A stretch of DNA of 40,666 nt, taken from NCBI GenBank assembly GCA_030653035.1, contig JAUSAB010000065.1, positions 1 through 40,666 on the forward strand, given 5' to 3'. Origin of the DNA: Desulfocapsaceae bacterium. Lineage in GTDB: Bacteria; Desulfobacterota; Desulfobulbia; Desulfobulbales; Desulfocapsaceae. The notes under the pieces are model-generated. The model had not been told where the DNA came from. It searched no databases and was given only the letters and a program-made list of their open reading frames with translations. This document shows positions 5,650 to 40,629 of this stretch, piece after piece. A program made the position numbers and the translations under genes. Position 1 is the first letter of the stretch. Each line of letters starts with the position of its first letter.

Positions 5650-6732
5650 ATGAACGATAACCCTCTGGAACTCTTATCACCTGAAGAGTGCACAAATACA
5701 ATCCTTGAACTCAGCGGGGTGGAATTTGAACCGGATATCGCCGTTGACCTCTGGTCCAATATATTGAAGCACAAATGGCTTCTTTCAGAAAAACTTGGCC
5801 GCGACGTAGGATTACGGACCGCCTGCATTGATTTCCTGGAAAACATGGAGCAAGCCCCTGATGAATACCTCACCTATCAACAGAAAAATATTCTCAGTGA
5901 GATGGGGGCCCAAACTATCAGCAGAAAAATGTGGGATACCATATCCGACTCTCAACCCCCAAAACAGTTGGTCCAACGCCGAATCATCATGCCCCTCATG
6001 GAGGAAAGCCTTTCGCTGAAACACGGCGTTGTTCCTCCTAAGGCTATCGTTTTTTTCGGGCCTCCCGGGACGGGAAAGACCCATTTTGTAAAGGCGATAG
6101 CCGGTGTCCTGGCCTGGCGGTACATAGAGATCGTACCCAGTATGCTTATGGCGGACGGGGTAGAGAAGATAGGTGCCAACTTGCGGGAAGTAATGGAGAA
6201 AGCCAGAAATCTTGATGAAGTAGTCCTTTTTATCGATGAATTTGAAGAGATCGCCGGCAGTCGTGATATGGCTGACCGGATTGATAAATCCATTACCAAC
6301 GAGTTTCTCAAACAAATTCCTTTGCTCAAGGAGCAGCAGAACAAGATACTACTGGTGTGTGCCACCAATTACATCAGAGACCTAGATGCGGCAATGCTGC
6401 GTCCGGGAAGGTTTGACTGCATCATTCCGGTTGGGGGATTGGACAGGGAGGGAAGGACAACTATTCTCGAGCATTATCTTTCCACGCTCAACACCGGACA
6501 GATCGATCTGGATCGCCTGGTCGAAATGACATCGGGGTTCACTCCTGCAGATATACAGTATCTTTTCCAGCAGGTCGCCCATTTTGCTTTTGAACAGGAA
6601 CTTGCCACTCAAAAAGACTACCTGGTAACCGCCGAAACGTTCATCGACATCACACCGAAAGTCCTTCCGTCTTTGAGCGATGAAGTAATTGAAGAGTTTG
6701 AAAAAGACAGCGTCAACTTTTCACGAGTCTAA
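5650..6732 (+). CDS. AAA+ ATPase of the FtsH/p97-like classic AAA type
   Basis: This is a 360-residue protein with one AAA module. Walker A GPPGTGKT is at about 137-144, Walker B LFIDE at 193-197, sensor-1 Asn at about 240 (VCATN), and the arginine-finger/second-region motif LRPGRFD at 250-256. The C-terminal helical lid includes SGFTPADIQYLFQ. The N-terminal 65 residues form a separate domain (DLWSNILKHKWLLSEKLGRD), which resembles from memory the C-terminal part of DUF4032 proteins; this is uncertain. There is no protease domain or membrane segment, so it is probably a cytoplasmic remodelling ATPase. It sits between a BON lipoprotein group and a BON-DUF1207 outer-membrane protein, suggesting a role in envelope stress. 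Substrate unknown. Confidence 0.85.
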   Translation: MNDNPLELLSPEECTNTILELSGVEFEPDIAVDLWSNILKHKWLLSEKLGRDVGLRTACIDFLENMEQAPDEYLTYQQKNILSEMGAQTISRKMWDTISDSQPPKQLVQRRIIMPLMEESLSLKHGVVPPKAIVFFGPPGTGKTHFVKAIAGVLAWRYIEIVPSMLMADGVEKIGANLREVMEKARNLDEVVLFIDEFEEIAGSRDMADRIDKSITNEFLKQIPLLKEQQNKILLVCATNYIRDLDAAMLRPGRFDCIIPVGGLDREGRTTILEHYLSTLNTGQIDLDRLVEMTSGFTPADIQYLFQQVAHFAFEQELATQKDYLVTAETFIDITPKVLPSLSDEVIEEFEKDSVNFSRV

Positions 6733-15514: not shown

Positions 15515-18500
15515 TCAGGCCAATGTCCCAATAGCAACCCGCAAAACTGCGAGTGCCGCTTCGAAGTCAAACGAGCGGATACCGTCGTCAATCCGGCGAT
15601 AGTGGATGGGGAAGGCGGCGTGCAGCAACTCCGTGTTTGCATCCAGCACATCAACGGCCTCTGCATCGTCGTCGGCCAGCATTGCCGCCAGCTTGTCACA
15701 GACCACCTTGAGCTTTCCCGGATCGACCGTGCCGGCCGTCTTGACCCGTTCCACCGGCAGTTGCTGTTCCAGTTGGGAGATAAGAGTTTCAAGCACCATT
15801 TTCAACTCGTCGAGCCGGGCATCGATCTCCTGAAGCGAACTCCGTTCATTGATCGCCATCTCAAGCCTTTCCGCCAGCTGCTGCAAACGGGTGGCGCCGA
15901 TGGTGCCGGAAACACCCTTGAGCGTATGAGCGAGCCTCTCCGCTGTATTCCAGGAATTGCCCACCAACGCTTTGAGGATTTCCTCCACGACGGATTTCTG
16001 TCCGGCCACGAACTTGTGCAGCATCGAAAGGTAGAGCGGCTTCTTGCCCAGCACCCGGCGCAGGCCATCGGCCATATCCAACCCCTCAATGCCGGACGGC
16101 AGTTCGACATCAACCACCACCTGCGGTTTTGCCTCGACGGCGACGGCTGTTGATTGGTGCGGCTTAATCCATTTCAGCAACGCCTTCCATAAGTTTTCAG
16201 GTTCGATCGGCTTGGCCACATGATCGTTCATGCCCGCCGCCATGCAACGGTCGCGATCGCCCTGCATGACGTTGGCGGTCATCGCCACCACCGGAAGATC
16301 CTTGAAGCGCGCCTCCTTGCGGATCTCCACGGTCGCTGTCACCCCGTCCATCACCGGCATCTGCATGTCCATCAGCACGATGTCGTAATCAGTGGCCCTG
16401 ACCTTGTCCAGCGCAATTTGGCCGTTCTCGGCCAGATCGACAATAAAGCCGGCATCGCGCAGCAGTTCGGTTGCCACTTCCTGATTAAGATCGTTGTCCT
16501 CCACCAGTAAGACACGGGAGCCCTTGATGGCAGAAAGTTGCATAAAGGTATCAGTCGGCGTATCCCCGGCAGTGCGCACGCCATCGTCGACGCCTCCCAG
16601 AATACGGATCACGCTGTCAAAGAGCACCGAGGGACTGACCGGTTTAATCAGTACATCGGTGATATCAGCCCCCTCCGCAGCCTTTATCACTTCCTCGCGG
16701 CCGAAAGCGGTCACCATGATCATGTGCGGCATGCGACTGAGTGGCAGCTCCCTCAGCCGTTTAGCCGTCTCGTTGCCATCCATGCCCTCCATTTTCCAGT
16801 CGAGAAACACGATCTCGTAAGGCATGCCCTGCGCCTCGGCACGATCCACGGCGCCAATGGCCGCCTGGCCCGACTCGACCAGATCAACCTTGAAACTCAT
16901 GCTGCCAAGCAGGTCGCCCAGCATCTGGCAGGCGTTCTCGTTGTCATCTACCACCAAGACACGCTTGCCCTGCATACCGGTCGACAACGCGAGCTTACGC
17001 GGCTGGCCGACGCCCTTGCCGAGGCATGCCGTAAACCAGAAGGTGCTGCCCTTGCCGGGTTCGCTGCTGACGCCCACCTCTCCGCCCATCAGTTCGGCCA
17101 GCTTCTTGGAAATGGCCAGTCCGAGACCAGTGCCGCCAAATTCGCGGGTGGTTGAGGCGTCGGCCTGCACAAATCGCTGAAACAACCGCCCTATCTGCTC
17201 CTCCGTCAGGCCGGTGCCCGTATCGCGCACCGCGCAATAGATCAGCACATCCTCATCGGTCTGCTCCTGGAGACGAACGACGATGTCGATCTCGCCATGC
17301 TCGGTGAACTTGACGGCATTATTGCAGTAATTGATCAGAATCTGCCCCATCCGCAGCGGATCGCCGATCAGAACGGGCGGTACGTTCTTGTCTATGTCGA
17401 AGATCAGTTCCAGCCCCTTGGCAGAGGTCTTCTCGGACATCAGGCTGGCCACATTATCGAGCATCTTTTCCAGCTCAAACTCGGTGTATTCGATCGTCAG
17501 CTTGCCCACCTCGATCTTCGAAAAGTCAAGAATATCGTTGATAATACTGAGTAGATGCCGACTGGAGCTTTTGATCTTCTTGATGTAATCGCGCTGGCGC
17601 GGTGTCAGCTCGGTCTTCATCGCCAAGTGGGACATGCCGATAATGGCGTTCATCGGGGTGCGAATTTCATGGCTCATATTGGAGAGGAAATCCGATTTAG
17701 CGATATTGGCTTTTTCCGCTGCCGCCTTGGCATTCACCAACTCGGCGGTCTTTTCCTCCAGCACCTGATCGAGAATTTTACGCTCCGTAACGTCACGCGC
17801 CGCGGCAAACACGCCCTGCAACCTCCTGTCCCGATCGTAGAAGGTGGTGGCATTTAAAGATACCACCGTTTCCTTGCCGTCCCTGGTGCGCACGGTGAGT
17901 TCATAGTTGGTGACCTTCTTTTCGCTCAGCACAAGTTTGATGCCGGCCTCAGCCCCCTCCGGATCAGTGAAGTAATTTTTAAACGGCGCCCCGATCAATT
18001 CGTCACGCGTGCAATCAGTGAGCGCTTCCATCTGTTTGTTGACATCGGTAATGATACCGGCTGGATCAGTGGTCATCAACGCATCAATATTGGATTCAAA
18101 CAGGGAACGGGTGTAGAACTGATGGTCGCGCAGGCGCTGACCGAGTTGCTTCTGCTCGGCCTCGATCTGCTTGCGGGCCGTGTTGTCCGTGCCGATCAGC
18201 AGATACCCAATAATGGTTCCATGCTCGTCCCGCAGGGCCGTGACCGACACGACTGCGGGAAAACGGCTGCCATCCTTGCGGATATAGGTCAACTCGTAGA
18301 TGTCCTCAATCCCACGTGAAGCCTTGAACACCAAGGCCTCAAATCCCGGCGTAATTGGGGTTTCAAGTTCGACACTGAGCGCCTGGGCGCGGGCAATCAG
18401 CTCCTGCGGATCTGAGATGTCGGCCGGGGTAATCGTGTTCATCACTTCGGCAGCCGTGTAGCCCAGCATGCGCTCGGCGCCAACGTTGAAGATCTGGATG

Positions 18501-19888
18501 ACGCCCTTGGCGTCAGTGGCGATACTCGAGAAATTGGCGCTGTTGAAGATCGCGTTCTGCAGGGCTCCCGCCTTGACTAATGCCTCTTCCGCCTGCTTGC
18601 GGGCGGTGATATCACGCAGGATGCCGGTGAAATAACGCTGACCGCCCAGCCACATCTCACTGACCGCTATCTCCAACGGGAAAATAGTGCCATCCTTGCG
18701 CCGACCGACAACCTCACGGCCAAGGCCGATAGCGCGGGCCTCTTCGCTCGCGCTGTAATATTCAAGCGAGCCATTGCGTCGGTCTTGATCAAGTTCGGGG
18801 ATCAGCAGACTGAAGGTTTGTCCGACGAGTTCGGCGGCAGCATAGCCAAACATGCGCTCAGCGGCCGGGTTCACCGTCTCGACGATGCCACCGTGGGCAT
18901 GGAGGGTGACAATACCATCGACTACGGTATTCAAAATCGTCTGGATCAGGGTTGTATTGTCGCGCAAGATCTGTTGCGCCGCATATTCTCCGGTGACATC
19001 GCGGAACACCAGTACGGCTCCAACCACCTGGGAGTCGCGGTCGCGAATGGGGGCGCAACTATCGGCGATATCGCACTCCGTCCCATCACGGGCAATCAGC
19101 ACAGTGTGGTTGGCCAGGCCATGGATTGTGCCCTGCGCCAAGGTCTCCATGACCGGGATCGTGGCCGGTCGACGGGTTTCCTTGTTGACGATATGAAAAA
19201 TTTCGTCTATCAGGTGACCGTCGGCCTGCGCCTGCGTCCAACCGGTAAGCTTTTCGGCCAGGGGATTGAGGAGTGTCACCCGTGCTTTTGCATCAGTGGC
19301 GATGACGGCATCACCAATAGAGTTGAGCGTCACCGCCAGCTTTTCCTCGCTCTCCCGCAAGGTGACATTGGCCTGCTGTAGTTGTTTGTTTGTCTCTTCC
19401 TGAATCTCAAGCAAATGCTGGCGTTCTGCCTCGACCTGCTTGCGCGCGGTATTATCGGTGCCGATCAGCAGATATCCGATGATGGCGTCCTTCTTGTCGC
19501 GCAGGGCCGTAACCGACACAACTGCCGGAAAGCGGCTGCCATCCTTGCGGATGTAGGTCAGCTCATAGATGTCCTCGATCCCACGTGAGGCCTTGAACAC
19601 CAAGGCCTCAAAACCCGGCGCAATCGTGGTTCCGAGTTCGACGCTGAGCGCCTCGGCACGGGCGATCACTTCCTGCGGATCGGAGATATCGGCCGGCGTA
19701 ATCTTGTTTTTCACTTCGCTGGCCGTATAGCCCAGCATGCACTCGGCACCAACATTAAAGATCTGAATAACGCCCTGCGCGTCAGTGGCAATACTCGAGA
19801 AATTGGCGCTGTTGAAAATCGCACTCTGCAGGGCTCCGGCCTTGAGCAGCACCTCTTCCGCCTGCATGCGGGCAGTGTTGATAGTCAT
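15515..19888 (-). CDS. Multi-PAS hybrid histidine kinase with two REC and HPt
   Basis: This 1457-residue sensor carries five PAS-type domains: about 15-150, 180-300, 312-430, 438-573 and 590-705. The first and fourth are copies of one module (TARK-ending). No transmembrane segment is apparent, so sensing is cytoplasmic. HisKA follows with His740 ([12 protein letters not shown]), then HATPase_c (N-box about 853, GTGLGL about 919-924). REC1 has Asp1030, REC2 Asp1174, and the HPt domain has His1321 (AHTLKG). A full phosphorelay His-Asp-His is thus present in one chain and can pass phosphate to the REC of the adjacent activator (13992-15512). No ribosome site is clear before ATG 19888, and a MITE-like element ends 40 bp upstream, so it probably supplies or interrupts the promoter region. 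Confidence 0.92.
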
Positions 19889-34533: not shown

Positions 34534-35925
34534 TCACAACCACTGGATGAATAAATTTACAAACCATTCTCTGACCCTGGGCGGCAGAGGTCTTTTTTCC
34601 CAATCATCCCTGTGAATCTGCCTTGAATCCGCAAGATCTCGGGCAAACATCTTTTCCATTTCCACGGCAAATTCTTTGCTCAAGATAACCGCATTCACCT
34701 CGTCATTGTTTAACAAGCTTAAGAAATCCATGTTGGTTGAACCGACTGTTGCCCAGACCTTGTCAACCACTGCGGTTTTCGCATGGAGCATGGACGTACT
34801 GTGCTCATAGATCTTCACTCCCGCCTGCAAAAGCTCGGAATAATGATCCCGTTGGGCGTATAATGCCAACTTTGAATCGCTGATCCCGGGGAGGATGATC
34901 TTTACATCAACACCGCGCCCAGCAGCATCAACAAGGGCCTTTACGATCTGGTCGTCAGGGATAAAATAGGAGTTTGTTATGTGAATTGAATGCTCGGCAA
35001 AAGTGATGGCCGACACATAGATAATAAAAGGAATCCTGTTGTCCTCTCCCGGGGTGCTGCCAACCACCCGCACCAAGGTATTTCCCTCTGCCTTCATTTC
35101 AGGGAAATGGTTCTGGCTGGAAAGATCCGGCCCCTTCTGCTTCAGCCAGGTGTCAAGAAAGAGCTTCTGGAACTCAGCTACGGCCGGTCCTTCAACTTGA
35201 ATATCTGTGTCACGCCAGTGAATCGGCGTATTTCCGGTTTTCTTTCTCCCGAAAGGACGGCTCGAATAGACCTCGCTGATATTGATGCCCCCGATAATGG
35301 CAATCGTGCCGTCGATTATCAAGATCTTGCGGTGATCGCGGTGGGTCAGCGCCCATTGCCCCTTAGCCTCCAGGGGATTTATCGGATTAAATCCAACCAC
35401 CTGAATTCCACCATCGCTCAGACGCTGAAAAAAAGAAGCGGGGGTCTTGATGCTGCCCACGCTGTCATAGATAAGATTTACCTGGACACCTTCCGCCTTT
35501 TTTTTGAGCAACAAATCGGCAAATCTGCGGCCGATATCATCATCTTCAATGATAAAGGTTTCAAGGTTGATAAGATCTTTGGCCTTCTCCATTGCGGAAA
35601 ACATGGCGGCATAGGCAGCTTGGCCATCGGCAAGCAGTGTGACCTTGTTCCCCTTGGTCAGCGGACTGTCGGTGACCGATTCTACCACGGCAGTATGGCG
35701 TTCCAGAATGTCCGTCGGGTTGACTGATCGCTTCAGCCGTTCAATGATGGCCTTACTTTGGGAGGGGGAGAGCAATCCCTTGGATGAAAGGATTTGCGGA
35801 TGGTTTTGGGACGTCGGCGCCTCATCAATTATTTGAGAGACGTTCGGCAAGTTCGCACAGCCTTTGTCGAGACTCAAGAAGGAGAGAAACAAAAAAATCA
35901 ACAAGAGAGGCTTGGCATTTTTCAT
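34534..35925 (-). CDS. Cardiolipin synthase-like phospholipase D protein
   Basis: This 463-residue protein has two HKD catalytic motifs: His198-Lys200-Asp205 in DHRKILIIDG, and His381-Lys383-Asp388 in HAKTAVVD, each followed by the family GS/N motif (GGINIS, GSTNMD). A hydrophobic N-terminus (6-19) ends in GC at 22-23, an imperfect lipobox, so it is membrane-associated. This is the Cls/PLD family that joins two phosphatidylglycerols to make cardiolipin, or transfers phosphatidyl groups. Gene order suggests an operon with the tpiA and GH13 genes, with a terminator following at 34447. A GGAGG site lies about 10 bases before the start. Confidence 0.9.
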   Translation of the reverse strand: MKNAKPLLLIFLFLSFLSLDKGCANLPNVSQIIDEAPTSQNHPQILSSKGLLSPSQSKAIIERLKRSVNPTDILERHTAVVESVTDSPLTKGNKVTLLADGQAAYAAMFSAMEKAKDLINLETFIIEDDDIGRRFADLLLKKKAEGVQVNLIYDSVGSIKTPASFFQRLSDGGIQVVGFNPINPLEAKGQWALTHRDHRKILIIDGTIAIIGGINISEVYSSRPFGRKKTGNTPIHWRDTDIQVEGPAVAEFQKLFLDTWLKQKGPDLSSQNHFPEMKAEGNTLVRVVGSTPGEDNRIPFIIYVSAITFAEHSIHITNSYFIPDDQIVKALVDAAGRGVDVKIILPGISDSKLALYAQRDHYSELLQAGVKIYEHSTSMLHAKTAVVDKVWATVGSTNMDFLSLLNNDEVNAVILSKEFAVEMEKMFARDLADSRQIHRDDWEKRPLPPRVREWFVNLFIQWL

Positions 35926-35990: not shown

Positions 35991-36707
35991 CTATTTTTTC
36001 TCCATGCCCTTCGCCATGCCCTTCGCCATGTGCTCACAGATAGCAAGAAAAGAATCCACATCCAGGCTGGCCTGACCGACAAAAAGCCCTGACAGTTCTG
36101 GTAGCTGTGTATAATCACTGACATTATGTGGCTCAAGGGAACCGCCATAAACAACCGGTCTGCCATGTGAAATCCGGGAAAGAGAACGAGCTGTTGCGGC
36201 AGCTTGTATGGGTGGCTCGGGAATCCTCGCTGTCATTGCATCGACCGGGCCATAGGCGATAATCATTTCCTTGCTGTCACTGTCGTTTACGGCCAGGAGC
36301 TGAGAAGCGCCATAGGGTTGATCGACGCACATAATAGGAATCAGGCCGACGTCCACCGCCTCGCTCATCTTTCCGGCAACATCATCCACGGTTTCATGAA
36401 AATAGAGTCTTCGTTCGGAGTGGCCAAGAATGACATACTCAACGAGATCCTTGACCATATCGGCGGCCACAGCCCCGGTATAGGAACCTTTGGGAAAAGG
36501 TGAAATATCCTGGGCGGCAAGGGACACATTTTTCAGGCCCAAGGTCTTGAGTGTGTGCGCGAGAGATTGCAAGCAGATAAAGGAGGGGGCAACGATGATG
36601 GTAAGTCCCTCCACCGGACGATAACGTCTGGCAAACGCCTCAAACCAGCGTTGGGCCTCTTCATTTCCCTTGTTACACTTCCAGTTGGCAATCACATATT
36701 TTTTCAA
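35991..36707 (-). CDS. Triosephosphate isomerase homologue lacking catalytic Glu
   Basis: In this 238-residue TIM-barrel protein the substrate-binding NWK motif (Asn8, Lys10) and His96 of GHSERR are present. In the loop-6 motif, family AYEPVWAIGTG, the catalytic Glu is replaced: IIAYGPVDAMTAR, with Gly153 (GGC codon at 36251-36249). Other conserved Glu are also missing: TGAVAADM in place of TGEVSA-type, and CVDQ in place of CVGE. The GTG of the loop is absent. The phosphate-binding YGGS is kept. It may be an inactive or repurposed TpiA. The C-terminus contains a 12-bp repeat coding MAKGMAKG. It lies between a GH13 gene and cls. A real tpiA probably exists elsewhere. Confidence 0.85.
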   Translation of the reverse strand: MKKYVIANWKCNKGNEEAQRWFEAFARRYRPVEGLTIIVAPSFICLQSLAHTLKTLGLKNVSLAAQDISPFPKGSYTGAVAADMVKDLVEYVILGHSERRLYFHETVDDVAGKMSEAVDVGLIPIMCVDQPYGASQLLAVNDSDSKEMIIAYGPVDAMTARIPEPPIQAAATARSLSRISHGRPVVYGGSLEPHNVSDYTQLPELSGLFVGQASLDVDSFLAICEHMAKGMAKGMEKK

Positions 36708-36916
36708 TATTCCACTCCTTTTTTGACAGAGATGTTGAGGCTCTTCGCTGCGACAAAGCCGCTGTAAAAAAATAACATGGCCATCTTAATGCCCGGAGCG
36801 GCTCCTTGTATGTTGTTATCGGCCAGACGCCACTCAAAGAAACAGCCGGTAATGATTGGCAGTTTCTTTGAAGCGGCATAAGAATCCGTCAATGAAATGC
36901 GCAAAAACAGCCTTGC
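36704..36916 (-). other. Unrecognised open frame upstream of the tpiA-like gene
   Basis: The minus-strand frame open from 36916 ends at 36704, overlapping the isomerase start by four bases. It reads protein-like (LPIITGCFFEWRLADNN and MAMLFFYSGFVAAKSL) but has only TTG-type starts and no ribosome site. It may be a gene remnant or a decayed N-terminal part of another protein; it is kept here for its composition only. The rest of 36708-36950 shows no other gene. Confidence 0.3.
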
Positions 36917-36950: not shown

Positions 36951-38738
36951 TTATTGCGAAAAAATCAGGACGCTGTAGGGGCCAATGGAGACCGTTGCCT
37001 GCCAGGGTAGTCCGTCGCAGTCGGCCGCCTCGGCGATAACGTCCGTGCTCGGATGGTTTTTGAAATCGTCATTGTAACCGTGCCAATCGCTATTGAAGCG
37101 GAGCTTCCAGATCCCTGCAGCCGGGAAGCCGATGACGTAGCCCTCTTGAGGCTCATGCAAGAAATTGGCAACGACGACAACATCATCCGCCGGTCCGCCC
37201 TTGTCCCAACGGTGAAAGGCGATGACCTTCCGTTCATCGTGCAGATGATAGACCTGGGTGGACTGCCCGCAGAGGCCGCGCGTGAATCCGTCACGGTTGA
37301 GCCGGAGCCGGATGAGATCACGGTACAGCCGAACGATGCCATGAAACTCATCACGTTGATCCCAATCAAGAGGGACCGTATCACGGAACCATTCTCCTTC
37401 CAGGAATTCCTGCCCCTGAAAAAGCATGGGGATGCCGGGAGCGGTAAAGACCATAGCGGCGGCCAGCGTCGAACGTTTCTGCGCATACCAGCCTTTAGGG
37501 TCCTTCGGGCTGATCTCTTGGGGAACACGGGCCTTACCGTTCGCCACCTCGTCGTGCGATTCGCTGTAGATGACCCGGTCGAAGGCGTCATCGTTATAGC
37601 GGTAGCTGATGGCATGGCGGATGGCGGCGAGCGAGCGTTGCTCGTCATCGGGGGTAATCACCGCCTGGCGGATGGGATGGACGAACATGGCATCCCACTG
37701 TGAGCCAAACCCGGCGCCGCCGGCACCAACATCCTTGGTGAGCCACTTATTACTTTGCAGATCCTCAGCAATCGTGATCCTGCCGGGGTATTTCTGCGCA
37801 ACTTGGTCGTTGATCCATTGGAGCAGGCTCCAGCCCTCAGGCAGATCCTGGGCGTCGGAACCGTCGACGGTGCGGATGAATTGGGTGCAATCGAAGCGGA
37901 GGCCGTCAACGTGGTATTCCTCAAACCACATCAGAATATTATCGAGGAGGTATTGACGAACCTGGCCGCGTCCGTAATCGGGCCGAGTTTCTCCCCACGG
38001 TGTTTTGGCCCGGTCGTCATTGTAAAAATAGATCCCGCCGCGATTGTTCTCGCTCCAGCCGTCAAACTGCCAAAGATCGAGGTCGCCGGGACCCAGATGA
38101 TTATAAACAACATCCAGAACCACCGCGATACCCTCCTGATGGGCGCGCTTGACGAACTTTTTAAAGGCCAACGGGCCACCGTAGGCAACCTCCACCGAGA
38201 AAATATGGGCGGGATTATACCCCCACGAACGCTCTCCTGCAAACTCACACACCGGCATGACCTGAATCGTATTAACACCGAGCTTTTTCAAATGCCCCAG
38301 ACGCGACGACACCGAGGAAAACTTGCCCGGATGGTTGACGTCCTCCTGATCGTTGAAGGTGCCGACATGCAGTTCGTAAATGACAAGCTCGTTCCACGGC
38401 GCAAGCTGGAAATCGTCCCCTTGCCAGTCAAAGCCCGGATCATGAACAATGGCGTTGCCCACTGAGTTCGTCACCTCACGGGCATAGGGATCGATACGCT
38501 TGAATTCGCCGTTCGGTGTGGACAGGAGAAACCGATACTGATCGCCGACATGAGCCTCGGCCACATTGGCGTACCAGTAGCCATTCTCCTCCGCTTGCAG
38601 GGGATGCCTGGCGCCATCCCAATCATTGAATGAGCCGATGACGGATACTCGTTGCGCATGAGGCGCCCACACACGGAAGGCAACTCCCTGCCCATGCAGA
38701 ATCGATCCCATGCCTTTGATCTTGCTTTCATCGCTCAT
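36951..38738 (-). CDS. GH13 glycosidase, glycogen branching enzyme-like
   Basis: This is a 595-residue protein. The N-terminal CBM48/isoamylase-N domain (about 12-95) is marked by FRVWAPHAQRVSVIGSFNDW. The GH13 barrel has region I DVVYNH (Asp209, His214), region II GLRFD with nucleophile Asp283, region III IAEDL with acid Glu325, and region IV SESHDE with His395/Asp396, the pattern of branching enzymes and related trehalohydrolases. A C-terminal beta domain ends SVLIFSQ. It likely acts on alpha-glucans in the cytoplasm. AGAGGAGG lies just before the ATG. It is first of a minus-strand run with the tpiA-like and cls genes. Branching versus hydrolase activity is not settled from sequence. Confidence 0.85.
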   Translation of the reverse strand: MSDESKIKGMGSILHGQGVAFRVWAPHAQRVSVIGSFNDWDGARHPLQAEENGYWYANVAEAHVGDQYRFLLSTPNGEFKRIDPYAREVTNSVGNAIVHDPGFDWQGDDFQLAPWNELVIYELHVGTFNDQEDVNHPGKFSSVSSRLGHLKKLGVNTIQVMPVCEFAGERSWGYNPAHIFSVEVAYGGPLAFKKFVKRAHQEGIAVVLDVVYNHLGPGDLDLWQFDGWSENNRGGIYFYNDDRAKTPWGETRPDYGRGQVRQYLLDNILMWFEEYHVDGLRFDCTQFIRTVDGSDAQDLPEGWSLLQWINDQVAQKYPGRITIAEDLQSNKWLTKDVGAGGAGFGSQWDAMFVHPIRQAVITPDDEQRSLAAIRHAISYRYNDDAFDRVIYSESHDEVANGKARVPQEISPKDPKGWYAQKRSTLAAAMVFTAPGIPMLFQGQEFLEGEWFRDTVPLDWDQRDEFHGIVRLYRDLIRLRLNRDGFTRGLCGQSTQVYHLHDERKVIAFHRWDKGGPADDVVVVANFLHEPQEGYVIGFPAAGIWKLRFNSDWHGYNDDFKNHPSTDVIAEAADCDGLPWQATVSIGPYSVLIFSQ

Positions 38739-39828: not shown

Positions 39829-40629
39829 TTACATATTTCTCTTATGCAGCAATAATAAACGCCAGGGTTGATCAGTGAATATGTGGGTAGTTGGTGGCGG
39901 CTGCTTTGTAAGGGTATTGGCGTCTAAGGTAACCGCGGCATTCCGTGCCAACGCTCTGCCATCCAGCCTTGCACCGGTCTTGACTGAGATCGCAGTCAAT
40001 GCCAAGATGTTTCCTTTGACGACAGAGGTCGTTCCCAGAGTCGCTGAACTGCCGACCTGCCAAAAAATATTGCAGGCCTGGGCGCCGCCGGCCAGAATTA
40101 TCTGCCGGCCATTGCCCACAACGAGTGTGGACGCCATCTGGAAGATCCAGACAGCATTCGGGTCGCCTTGGGCGTCGAGCGTAAGATCTACTGACGTTAT
40201 GTCAAACGAACCCGGTGCAGATTTATAGAGGCCAGGGGCCAGGGTCTTGCCACCGAGTTCTCCCGCGGAGACAATCACATTGAGTGTCCGTCCAGCGGCA
40301 TCATTATAGGCAACAGTTAAGGCCCCTTGGGCCTGTTTGGCAATAGGATTGCCCAGATATACCGTCCCGTTCACTTTTACGGGCTGAGCTCCAACCACAA
40401 AAGTAGTGCCTGGCCACACTCCGACATTTCCATTAATCGTGCCGCCAGAGGTGCTGGTAATTGTAGTACCAGCCAGAGCCGCGAAAGAATCTGCCCACCC
40501 AAGGTTTACCGGAGCTTGACCTGCCATCGCATCTTGGTGCGGGAAAAACAAAACAACCGCAAGGACAAGGCCCACTTGCATCCATTTTGCCTTCTTCACT
40601 ACCAGGAGTGACGTAGACATTGTTTTCAT
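39829..40629 (-). CDS. DUF3494 ice-binding-family protein
   Basis: This 266-residue protein has an extended signal peptide (about 1-36, AMA-G). The DUF3494 fold, a discontinuous beta-solenoid, follows: LGWADSFAALAGTTITSTSG, GTINGNVGVWPG, LAPGLYKS, NAVWIFQMASTLVVGNG, ACNIFWQVGSSATLGT, and KTGARLDGRALARNAAVTLD. It is recognised as an ice-binding-protein-like adhesin family found in many bacteria, not only cold-adapted ones. The extreme C-terminus (QPPPTTHIFTDQPWRLLLLH) is unusual: no PEP-CTERM or LPXTG-type anchor is visible. AAGGA precedes the ATG at 40629. The 150 bp on its 3' side are gene-free. Confidence 0.9.
   Translation of the reverse strand: MKTMSTSLLVVKKAKWMQVGLVLAVVLFFPHQDAMAGQAPVNLGWADSFAALAGTTITSTSGGTINGNVGVWPGTTFVVGAQPVKVNGTVYLGNPIAKQAQGALTVAYNDAAGRTLNVIVSAGELGGKTLAPGLYKSAPGSFDITSVDLTLDAQGDPNAVWIFQMASTLVVGNGRQIILAGGAQACNIFWQVGSSATLGTTSVVKGNILALTAISVKTGARLDGRALARNAAVTLDANTLTKQPPPTTHIFTDQPWRLLLLHKRNM

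Follow-up and report, generated by a model that had tools for sequence, protein, structure and literature searches.

Triosephosphate isomerase (TIM or TPI; TpiA, EC 5.3.1.1, PF00121) serves in textbooks as the example of a perfect enzyme, with Glu165 as the residue that defines it. This residue is retained in archaeal TIMs, and the catalytic Glu is likewise retained in L-erythrulose-1-phosphate isomerase (11ef/11eg), a member of the TIM family that acts on another substrate. TIM residue numbers were mapped by alignment to the ordinary TpiA of the genome under study. In the account of the TIM site given in PMC12874384, the fixed residues are N10, K12, Q64, T75', G76', H95, S96, E97 and R98, loops 6 and 7 form the mobile part, His95 stabilises the enediolate, and the Ser96 hydroxyl is hydrogen bonded to the Glu165 carboxylate in the unliganded enzyme. 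The same source reports that the replacement of Glu by Asp alone lowers kcat 1500-fold, and that archaeal TIMs have a Glu at position 168 as hinge residue, in the motif PPE (PMC12874384). A further report places Cys126 near Glu165 (PMC3431843).

Pseudoenzymes such as the prozymes have lost the defining catalytic residue in a conserved paralogue, and some of them are described as having migrated catalytic residues (PMC10211241). Among the matches listed from the open-licence PubMed Central literature, none concerned a pseudo-TIM or a TIM paralogue devoid of Glu165. The genome description of Desulfocapsa sulfexigens names two triosephosphate isomerase genes, UWK_00786, which is numbered next to the pgk gene UWK_00787, and UWK_01623, on which the passages that name it make no remark (PMC3739170). 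We have analyzed a TIM-family gene from a window of 40,666 nucleotides, this being the whole stretch of DNA under study, which derives from a Desulfocapsaceae bacterium (assembly GCA_030653035.1, contig JAUSAB010000065.1).

A TIM-family protein with glycine at the catalytic position

The gene is on the minus strand, which the original prediction did not state, and starts with a TTG codon. The Pfam TIM profile PF00121 matches residues 4–226 of the 238-residue product with an E value of 8e-49. The gene and its key residues, with frequencies in a set of 82 paralogues described below, are the following:

36715 to 36720, minus strand: Shine-Dalgarno-like AAGGAG 5' of the TTG start, read from the sequence
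35991 to 36707, minus strand: 238-aa paralogue of the TIM family that lacks the catalytic Glu; accessory, glgB-linked copy
36678 to 36680, minus strand: Lys10, equivalent to TIM Lys12; 82 of 82 paralogues
36420 to 36422, minus strand: His96, equivalent to TIM His95; 81 of 82 paralogues
36414 to 36416, minus strand: Glu98, equivalent to TIM Glu97; 78 of 82 paralogues have Glu and the other 4 Asp
36321 to 36323, minus strand: Asp129 (codon GAT), at the TIM Gly128 position; final residue of β5 in the model
36318 to 36320, minus strand: Gln130 (codon CAA), at the TIM Glu129 position
36249 to 36251, minus strand: Gly153 (codon GGC), at the TIM Glu165 position
36240 to 36242, minus strand: Asp156 (codon GAT), at the TIM Trp168 position, in the loop 6 hinge

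The original prediction had claimed that the catalytic Glu is replaced by Gly within a loop 6 reading AYGPVDAM, that Lys10 and His96 are kept and that two more conserved Glu are absent. All of this was borne out: Gly153 occupies the Glu165 position, both retained residues align with Lys12 and His95, and the two further glutamates are replaced by Ala79 (Glu in 24 of 25 ordinary TPIs) and Gln130 (Glu in 25 of 25). Structure prediction, which had been proposed as a check, yielded with AlphaFold2 a (β/α)8 barrel with a mean pLDDT of 90.0 and a pTM of 0.90, the values being 70 for the block of residues 71–80 and 69 for residues 151–160. In this model residues 129 and 153 are the final residues of the neighbouring strands β5 and β6.

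The likeness to TPI comprises the fold, the NWK of loop 1, the GHSERR of loop 4, Cys126 and, in the window copy, the YGGS of loop 7. In agreement, the top structural matches of the model are TPIs, the first with Z 30.4 over 229 residues, and L-erythrulose-1-phosphate isomerase is matched with Z 29.3 at 28% identity. The paralogue differs from TPI in the lack of Glu165, in the changes of Trp168 to Asp or Glu, of Glu129 to Gln and other residues, of Gly128 to Asp and of the loop 3 Glu to Ala, in the absence of the loop 6 AIGTG and the replacement of the second glycine of loop 8, and in being about 15 residues shorter between β5 and β6. The top PDB sequence match, 7r9b (E 1.3e-33, residues 3–224), was deposited as a triosephosphate isomerase of 223 aa and is also short; it differs from the paralogue in reading AYDPKEAIGTG, with Asp in place of the catalytic Glu and with the AIGTG lid present. 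The paralogue family is a variant inside the TIM family and not a new fold or system.

Other TIM genes in the genome and distribution of the paralogue

A search of the source genome (3.41 Mb in 118 contigs, 99.99% complete) resulted in three TIMs, namely the window copy and one copy on each of contigs C7 and C35. The C7 copy is 81% identical to the window copy and likewise reads AYGPVDAM. The C35 copy, with 33% identity to the window copy, is an ordinary tpiA which reads AYEPVWAIGTG and lies between pgk-like and secG-like ORFs, names that come from our reading of the ORFs. The normal tpiA that the original prediction had suggested looking for is therefore present, and together with the distinct and conserved Glu-less clade it supports the proposal of a paralogue with another role; judged from sequence, the paralogue would not be the triosephosphate isomerase of the cell. 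The ordinary TpiA also scores 202 against the NCBIfam model TIGR00419, over the cut-off of 130.6, and the window copy reaches 92.3 bits, a test which is weak since a patescibacterial TPI with intact Glu also falls below the cut-off (109.6).

Scanning named genomes with a 23-row alignment returned 77 loci, of which 75 carry titles of Desulfobulbaceae, Desulfocapsaceae, Desulfocapsa and related genera, one Desulfoarculaceae, or simply Deltaproteobacteria, Proteobacteria or Pseudomonadota. The named carriers include Desulfoprunum benzoelyticum, Desulfopila aestuarii, Desulfofustis glycolicus, Desulforhopalus singaporensis, D. vacuolatus and Desulfosediminicola flagellatus. The remaining two loci encode short TPIs in which Glu is present: L106 belongs to a Levyibacteriota MAG of the Patescibacteria group, and L105, 65% identical to it, to a MAG titled only 'bacterium'. 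We refer to the order, whose members metabolise sulfur, as Desulfobulbales because the named relatives of the family include Desulfocapsaceae, which belong there.

Within the order the paralogue occurs in 97 of 159 genomes of at least 90% completeness, as counted by hand from the survey listing on matches stronger than the ordinary-TPI band, with fragments included and genome G050 excluded, its sequence (L123) reading AYEPVWA. In the family of the window it occurs in 55 of 61 genomes. No paralogue was seen in 62 of the 159, among them all six genomes of genus g42 and 12 of the 13 of family f5, which indicates that it is dispensable to many members. Among 247 genomes drawn from the phylum and inspected where they had a match at E 1e-22, none from outside the order exceeded 107 bits, the paralogues from order genomes in the same draw scoring at least 122, and all ten outside matches that were read carry AYEPVWAIGTG. 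The family has so far been seen in this one order alone.

Phylogeny, residue 153 and selection

The tree was built from 128 proteins (125 different rows), comprising 82 paralogues together with 25 ordinary TPIs from the phylum and 21 patescibacterial TPIs; the identical pairs among the 82 are L104/L122, L046/L126 and L085/L124. Left out of the tree and of all counts on these sets were L049, L051, L054, L057, L095 and L098 (run-on or internal stops), L075, L103 and L109 (short), and L068, L117, L118, L127, L128, L140 and L143. L111 and L115 were retained with one stop written as X, and loci L004–L027 were not added, being mostly the same genes as L033–L109. A separate 79-row count covers the window copy, the C7 copy and the 77 scan loci, including the two of patescibacterial type. 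As side observations, G004:C259, a near relative, has a stop within the aligned stretch, and genome G070 carries, besides the full paralogue L111, a second, partial and very similar copy some 4.3 kb apart on the same strand.

The paralogues form one side of a branch with support 100/100, in an analysis whose bootstrap had not fully settled, and the clade persists with an SH-aLRT of 99 in a quick tree from which the columns of loops 4, 5–6 and 8 were omitted. At position 153 the 82 paralogues have 51 Gly, 19 Thr, 7 Cys, 2 Ser and single Asn, Ile and Glu residues, so that Glu occurs in one of 82, against 25 of 25 ordinary and 21 of 21 short patescibacterial TPIs. The conservation of Gly153 in orthologues, raised in the original prediction as a point to check, thus holds as regards the missing Glu (81 of 82) and fails as regards the glycine itself, which is found in 51, the others having mainly Thr or Cys. 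The same prediction had named orthologues with Glu at 153, or a sequence error at 36249–36251, as evidence that would count against it; Glu is absent from 81 of the 82, and a single-base error is at odds with this.

Scored as Glu or non-Glu, position 153 changes twice on the tree, at the base of the family and in L093, and the basal change is counted as a loss because TPI is assumed to be ancestral. Glu165 thus appears to have been lost once and early, and the letter at 153 has since changed 13 times within the paralogues. The sole Glu bearer, L093, comes from a Deltaproteobacteria MAG (paralogue at 6013–6678), and in the same protein His95 is replaced by Gln and Ser96 by Arg, and the hinge has a gap of one residue. 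Purifying selection acts on the gene: dN/dS ranges from 0.087 to 0.207 in nine pairs, some with dS values (0.8–0.95) near saturation, and amounts to 0.149 between the window copy and an orthologue of 94% identity and to 0.131, at a dS of 0.95, between the window and C7 copies.

The only distant scan matches outside the paralogues are the short, Glu-bearing TPIs. L106 and its relatives (213–238 aa) resemble the paralogue in length and in the relaxation of Trp168, Glu129 and loop 8, and differ from it in having Glu165 in 21 of 21 and an acid at 128 in 0 of 21, and in forming a separate clade. The variation at Trp168, Glu129 and loop 8 in the patescibacterial-type sequences L152–L170, L105 and L106 is exemplified by AYEPPSSISPGE and VYEPPEAISGGG. 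A match of this type was found in 24 of 26 genomes searched and was the single match in 23, so that the short protein is likely the working TPI of these organisms. A recent transfer of the paralogue from that group was rejected, as the paralogues form their own clade with both TPI groups on the opposite side of the branch; a deep common origin would still be compatible with the sequences.

The active-site pocket and the acids at 129 and 156

The residues that make up the fixed part of the TIM site are almost invariant in the paralogues: Asn10, Lys12, Gln64 and Gly76 are found in 82 of 82, Thr75, His95 and Arg98 in 81 of 82, and the Glu97 position is acidic throughout. Ser96 is the exception within this set, being present in 65 of 82. 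Lost or relaxed are Glu165, Ile170, Gly171, Trp168 with its partner Glu129, and the second glycine of loop 8. The lid of loop 6, with the Gly171 gripper and the PVW hinge, is not preserved, the window copy reading PVDAMTAR, and loop 8 reads Gly-Gln in the window copy, its second Gly occurring in one of 82 paralogues against 7 of 21 patescibacterial TPIs. In loop 7 each of the two glycines is found in 81 of 82 and the serine in 57 of 82. With Gly171, Ile170 and the second loop 8 glycine lost, the phosphate site would be weakened. The loop 3 region is also distinct, as the paralogues have D67, P70, P72, A79 and A82 where ordinary TPIs have N, W, a variable residue, E and P.

Two positions are acidic in most of the paralogues. 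An Asp or Glu is found at 129 in 77 of 82 paralogues and in none of the 25 ordinary or 21 patescibacterial TPIs, and at 156 in 76 of 82 paralogues, none of the 25 ordinary and 5 of the 21 patescibacterial TPIs. Acid presence changes 5 times at 129 and 8 times at 156 on the whole tree, yes/no counts that are only roughly comparable with the letter count at 153. Neither L115 nor L120 carries an acid at any of the positions 129, 153 and 156. Since the acid at 129 appeared together with the clade, its association with the loss of Glu amounts in effect to one event. The side chain of Asp129 would be directed inward, into the pocket, since Cys126, which is near Glu165, has the same strand parity. 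Position 156 is a weaker candidate for the sole new base, because archaeal TIMs have an acid at 168 as the paralogue does, in their PPE hinge (PMC12874384), and because five patescibacterial TPIs combine it with an intact Glu165. In the helix after β4, positions 109 and 116 are acidic in 98% and 100% of the 82 paralogues and in 0% of the 25 ordinary TPIs, and would possibly form a new partner surface.

Genomic context

The genes flanking the window copy are on the same strand, with gaps of 243 nt to the GlgB-like gene and 65 nt to the PLD-like gene:

36951 to 38738, minus strand: GlgB/TreZ-like alpha-amylase-family protein, 595 aa, upstream neighbour
34534 to 35925, minus strand: PLD-family cardiolipin-synthase-like protein, 463 aa, downstream neighbour

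Judged by eye, the N-terminus of the PLD-family protein resembles a lipoprotein signal peptide. Elsewhere in the window there are an ice-binding-like protein (PF11999) at 39829–40629 on the minus strand, in the same island as the window copy, and a 1457-aa open reading frame at 15515–19888, also on the minus strand. At L038, an accessory TIM paralogue is surrounded by three ORFs that fall in a single cluster, PF11999 having been checked for two of these, and the ice-binding-like observation is shared by L039. A scan for promoters and terminators around the window gene gave no excess over shuffled sequences. A viral or plasmid origin was rejected, no relative being found in viral contigs searched with a three-row alignment, in plasmids at E 1e-30 or in PHROGs.

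The context of the 77 scan loci was scored by tblastn, with Pfam used for gene names. The usual place of the paralogue is the end of a holB-PSP1-metG-yggT-divIVA-yggU operon: at least one of these genes is upstream on the same strand in 57 of the 77 loci, and all six in 46. In the 54 loci with a yggU match, the median distance from the end of its alignment to the paralogue is 50 bases, with 51 loci at 110 bases or less. Five loci (L033, L036, L038, L039 and L043) have a glgB-like gene near the paralogue, three are truncated too soon upstream, and 12, including L105 and L106, are located elsewhere. In family f12, L112, L114, L115 and L120 show holB, PSP1, metG, yggT and yggU, and L110 shows metG, yggT and yggU. 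L113 and L119 of that family have none of the holB to yggU genes, and L111 has none within about 1 kb upstream. As the f12 loci share it, the location after yggU is probably an old one, without being universal. DivIVA as a functional partner is a weakened candidate, given that divIVA is missing at E 1e-4 in five f12 loci (L110, L112, L114, L115 and L120).

In the quick tree the window copy falls together with L033, L036 and L043 (SH-aLRT 99), and on this basis it would be a younger, within-genus duplicate of the operon copy. The original prediction had placed the gene in a glucan/lipid operon: the GlgB-like and PLD-like neighbours on the same strand are indeed there, but this setting belongs at most to an accessory copy, the common one being behind holB to yggU. 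At L036 the paralogue is followed by a short ORF and a histidine kinase, and no PLD gene was seen there.

Functional interpretation

We hold with high confidence that the window protein is a conserved paralogue other than TPI. It probably also has a functional ligand-binding site, as suggested by the retained residues, and a relocated catalysis is a tentative reading, with somewhat less than an even chance. The overall explanation that we place first, at about even chances, is that of a paralogue other than TPI with a working ligand site and a carboxylate that has perhaps been relocated. Its most specific form, in which the general-base carboxylate would have moved from the end of β6 (Glu165) to the end of β5 (Asp129), would be a natural case of such a move in the archetypal TIM barrel, creating an enzyme peculiar to the order, with a novel reaction or substrate on a TIM site that is otherwise intact; this form is less likely than not.

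The near-invariance across the order of the half that holds the ligand, while position 153 drifts mostly among small residues, argues against a decaying isomerase. The protein most likely serves either to bind a related small molecule or to act on it as a catalyst. As regards the inactive isomerase that the original prediction gave as its other option, most of the catalytic network other than the base is kept and an acid is gained on the neighbouring strand; we lean to catalysis because His95 is held and because this carboxylate, once gained, was held as well. In the mechanism that we propose, the fixed half (Lys12, Asn10, His95, Glu97 and Arg98) would hold a small, probably phosphorylated, carbonyl compound, with Thr75 contributed by the other subunit of a dimer, and the half of the pocket comprising lid and base would have been rebuilt. 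With less certainty, the carboxylate of Asp129 at the C-terminal end of β5 may take over near the space on β6 vacated by Glu165, perhaps assisted by the acidic hinge residue 156, in a proton transfer or related reaction whose substrate is not glyceraldehyde 3-phosphate. The gene in the window would be an accessory duplicate of the operon copy, retained near a glgB-like gene.

Close behind, and nearly as likely as this best reading, comes a true pseudoenzyme, a dimeric sensor or regulator of TIM fold which would bind a triose phosphate or similar compound and signal to a partner with no chemistry, an explanation to which we assign roughly one chance in three. The paralogue has lost the catalytic residue of its family and is under selection, as pseudoenzymes are, and the loss of the base in 81 of 82, the rebuilding of the lid and of the loop 8 phosphate contacts, the 13 changes that take 153 through G, T, C, S and N, and the retained residues that hold the ligand are all in line with this. 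The paralogue-specific acids at 109 and 116 could then form the surface for the partner. However, 81 of 82 keep His95, a residue that might not be required if the ligand were only bound, and the new acid at 129 is held in 77 of 82.

An improbable alternative is a prozyme, i.e. a heterodimer partner which joins and tunes the ordinary TpiA. Pairs of this type are described in other families (PMC10211241; PMC6221367), the same genome has an ordinary tpiA, and the loop 3 residues that reach the other subunit, Thr75 and Gly76, are kept. Nevertheless, loop 3 and the residues that follow have diverged in type, so that a homodimer of the paralogue itself fits better, and the paralogue showed no genomic linkage to tpiA, being usually located behind holB to yggU.

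Still less probable is a slow but real triosephosphate isomerase serving as second isozyme. The strong PF00121 match and the retention of most fixed catalytic residues would allow it, as would the two TPI genes listed for Desulfocapsa sulfexigens (PMC3739170). Against it, the change of Glu to Asp alone already costs 1500-fold in kcat (PMC12874384) and here the base, the gripper and the clamp are all changed, an ordinary copy is already present, and the TIGR00419 score lies below the cut-off, in the test described above as weak. A sequencing error or a pseudogene can be dismissed given the C7 copy, the orthologues (besides the window and C7 copies, 79 of 80 aligned relatives lack Glu) and the dN/dS values.

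Returning to the paralogue with a working ligand site, a second TIM that lacks Glu165 and is under selection constitutes a natural experiment on the rest of the TIM site, and the possible relocation of a catalytic residue can be tested by single mutants. Genes named triosephosphate isomerase in Desulfobulbales genomes may not encode that enzyme, and UWK_01623 of Desulfocapsa sulfexigens may be such a Glu-less paralogue annotated as the enzyme. Should the protein act instead as a sensor of a metabolite, the location after yggU in a metG operon would tie central carbon metabolism to a housekeeping operon.
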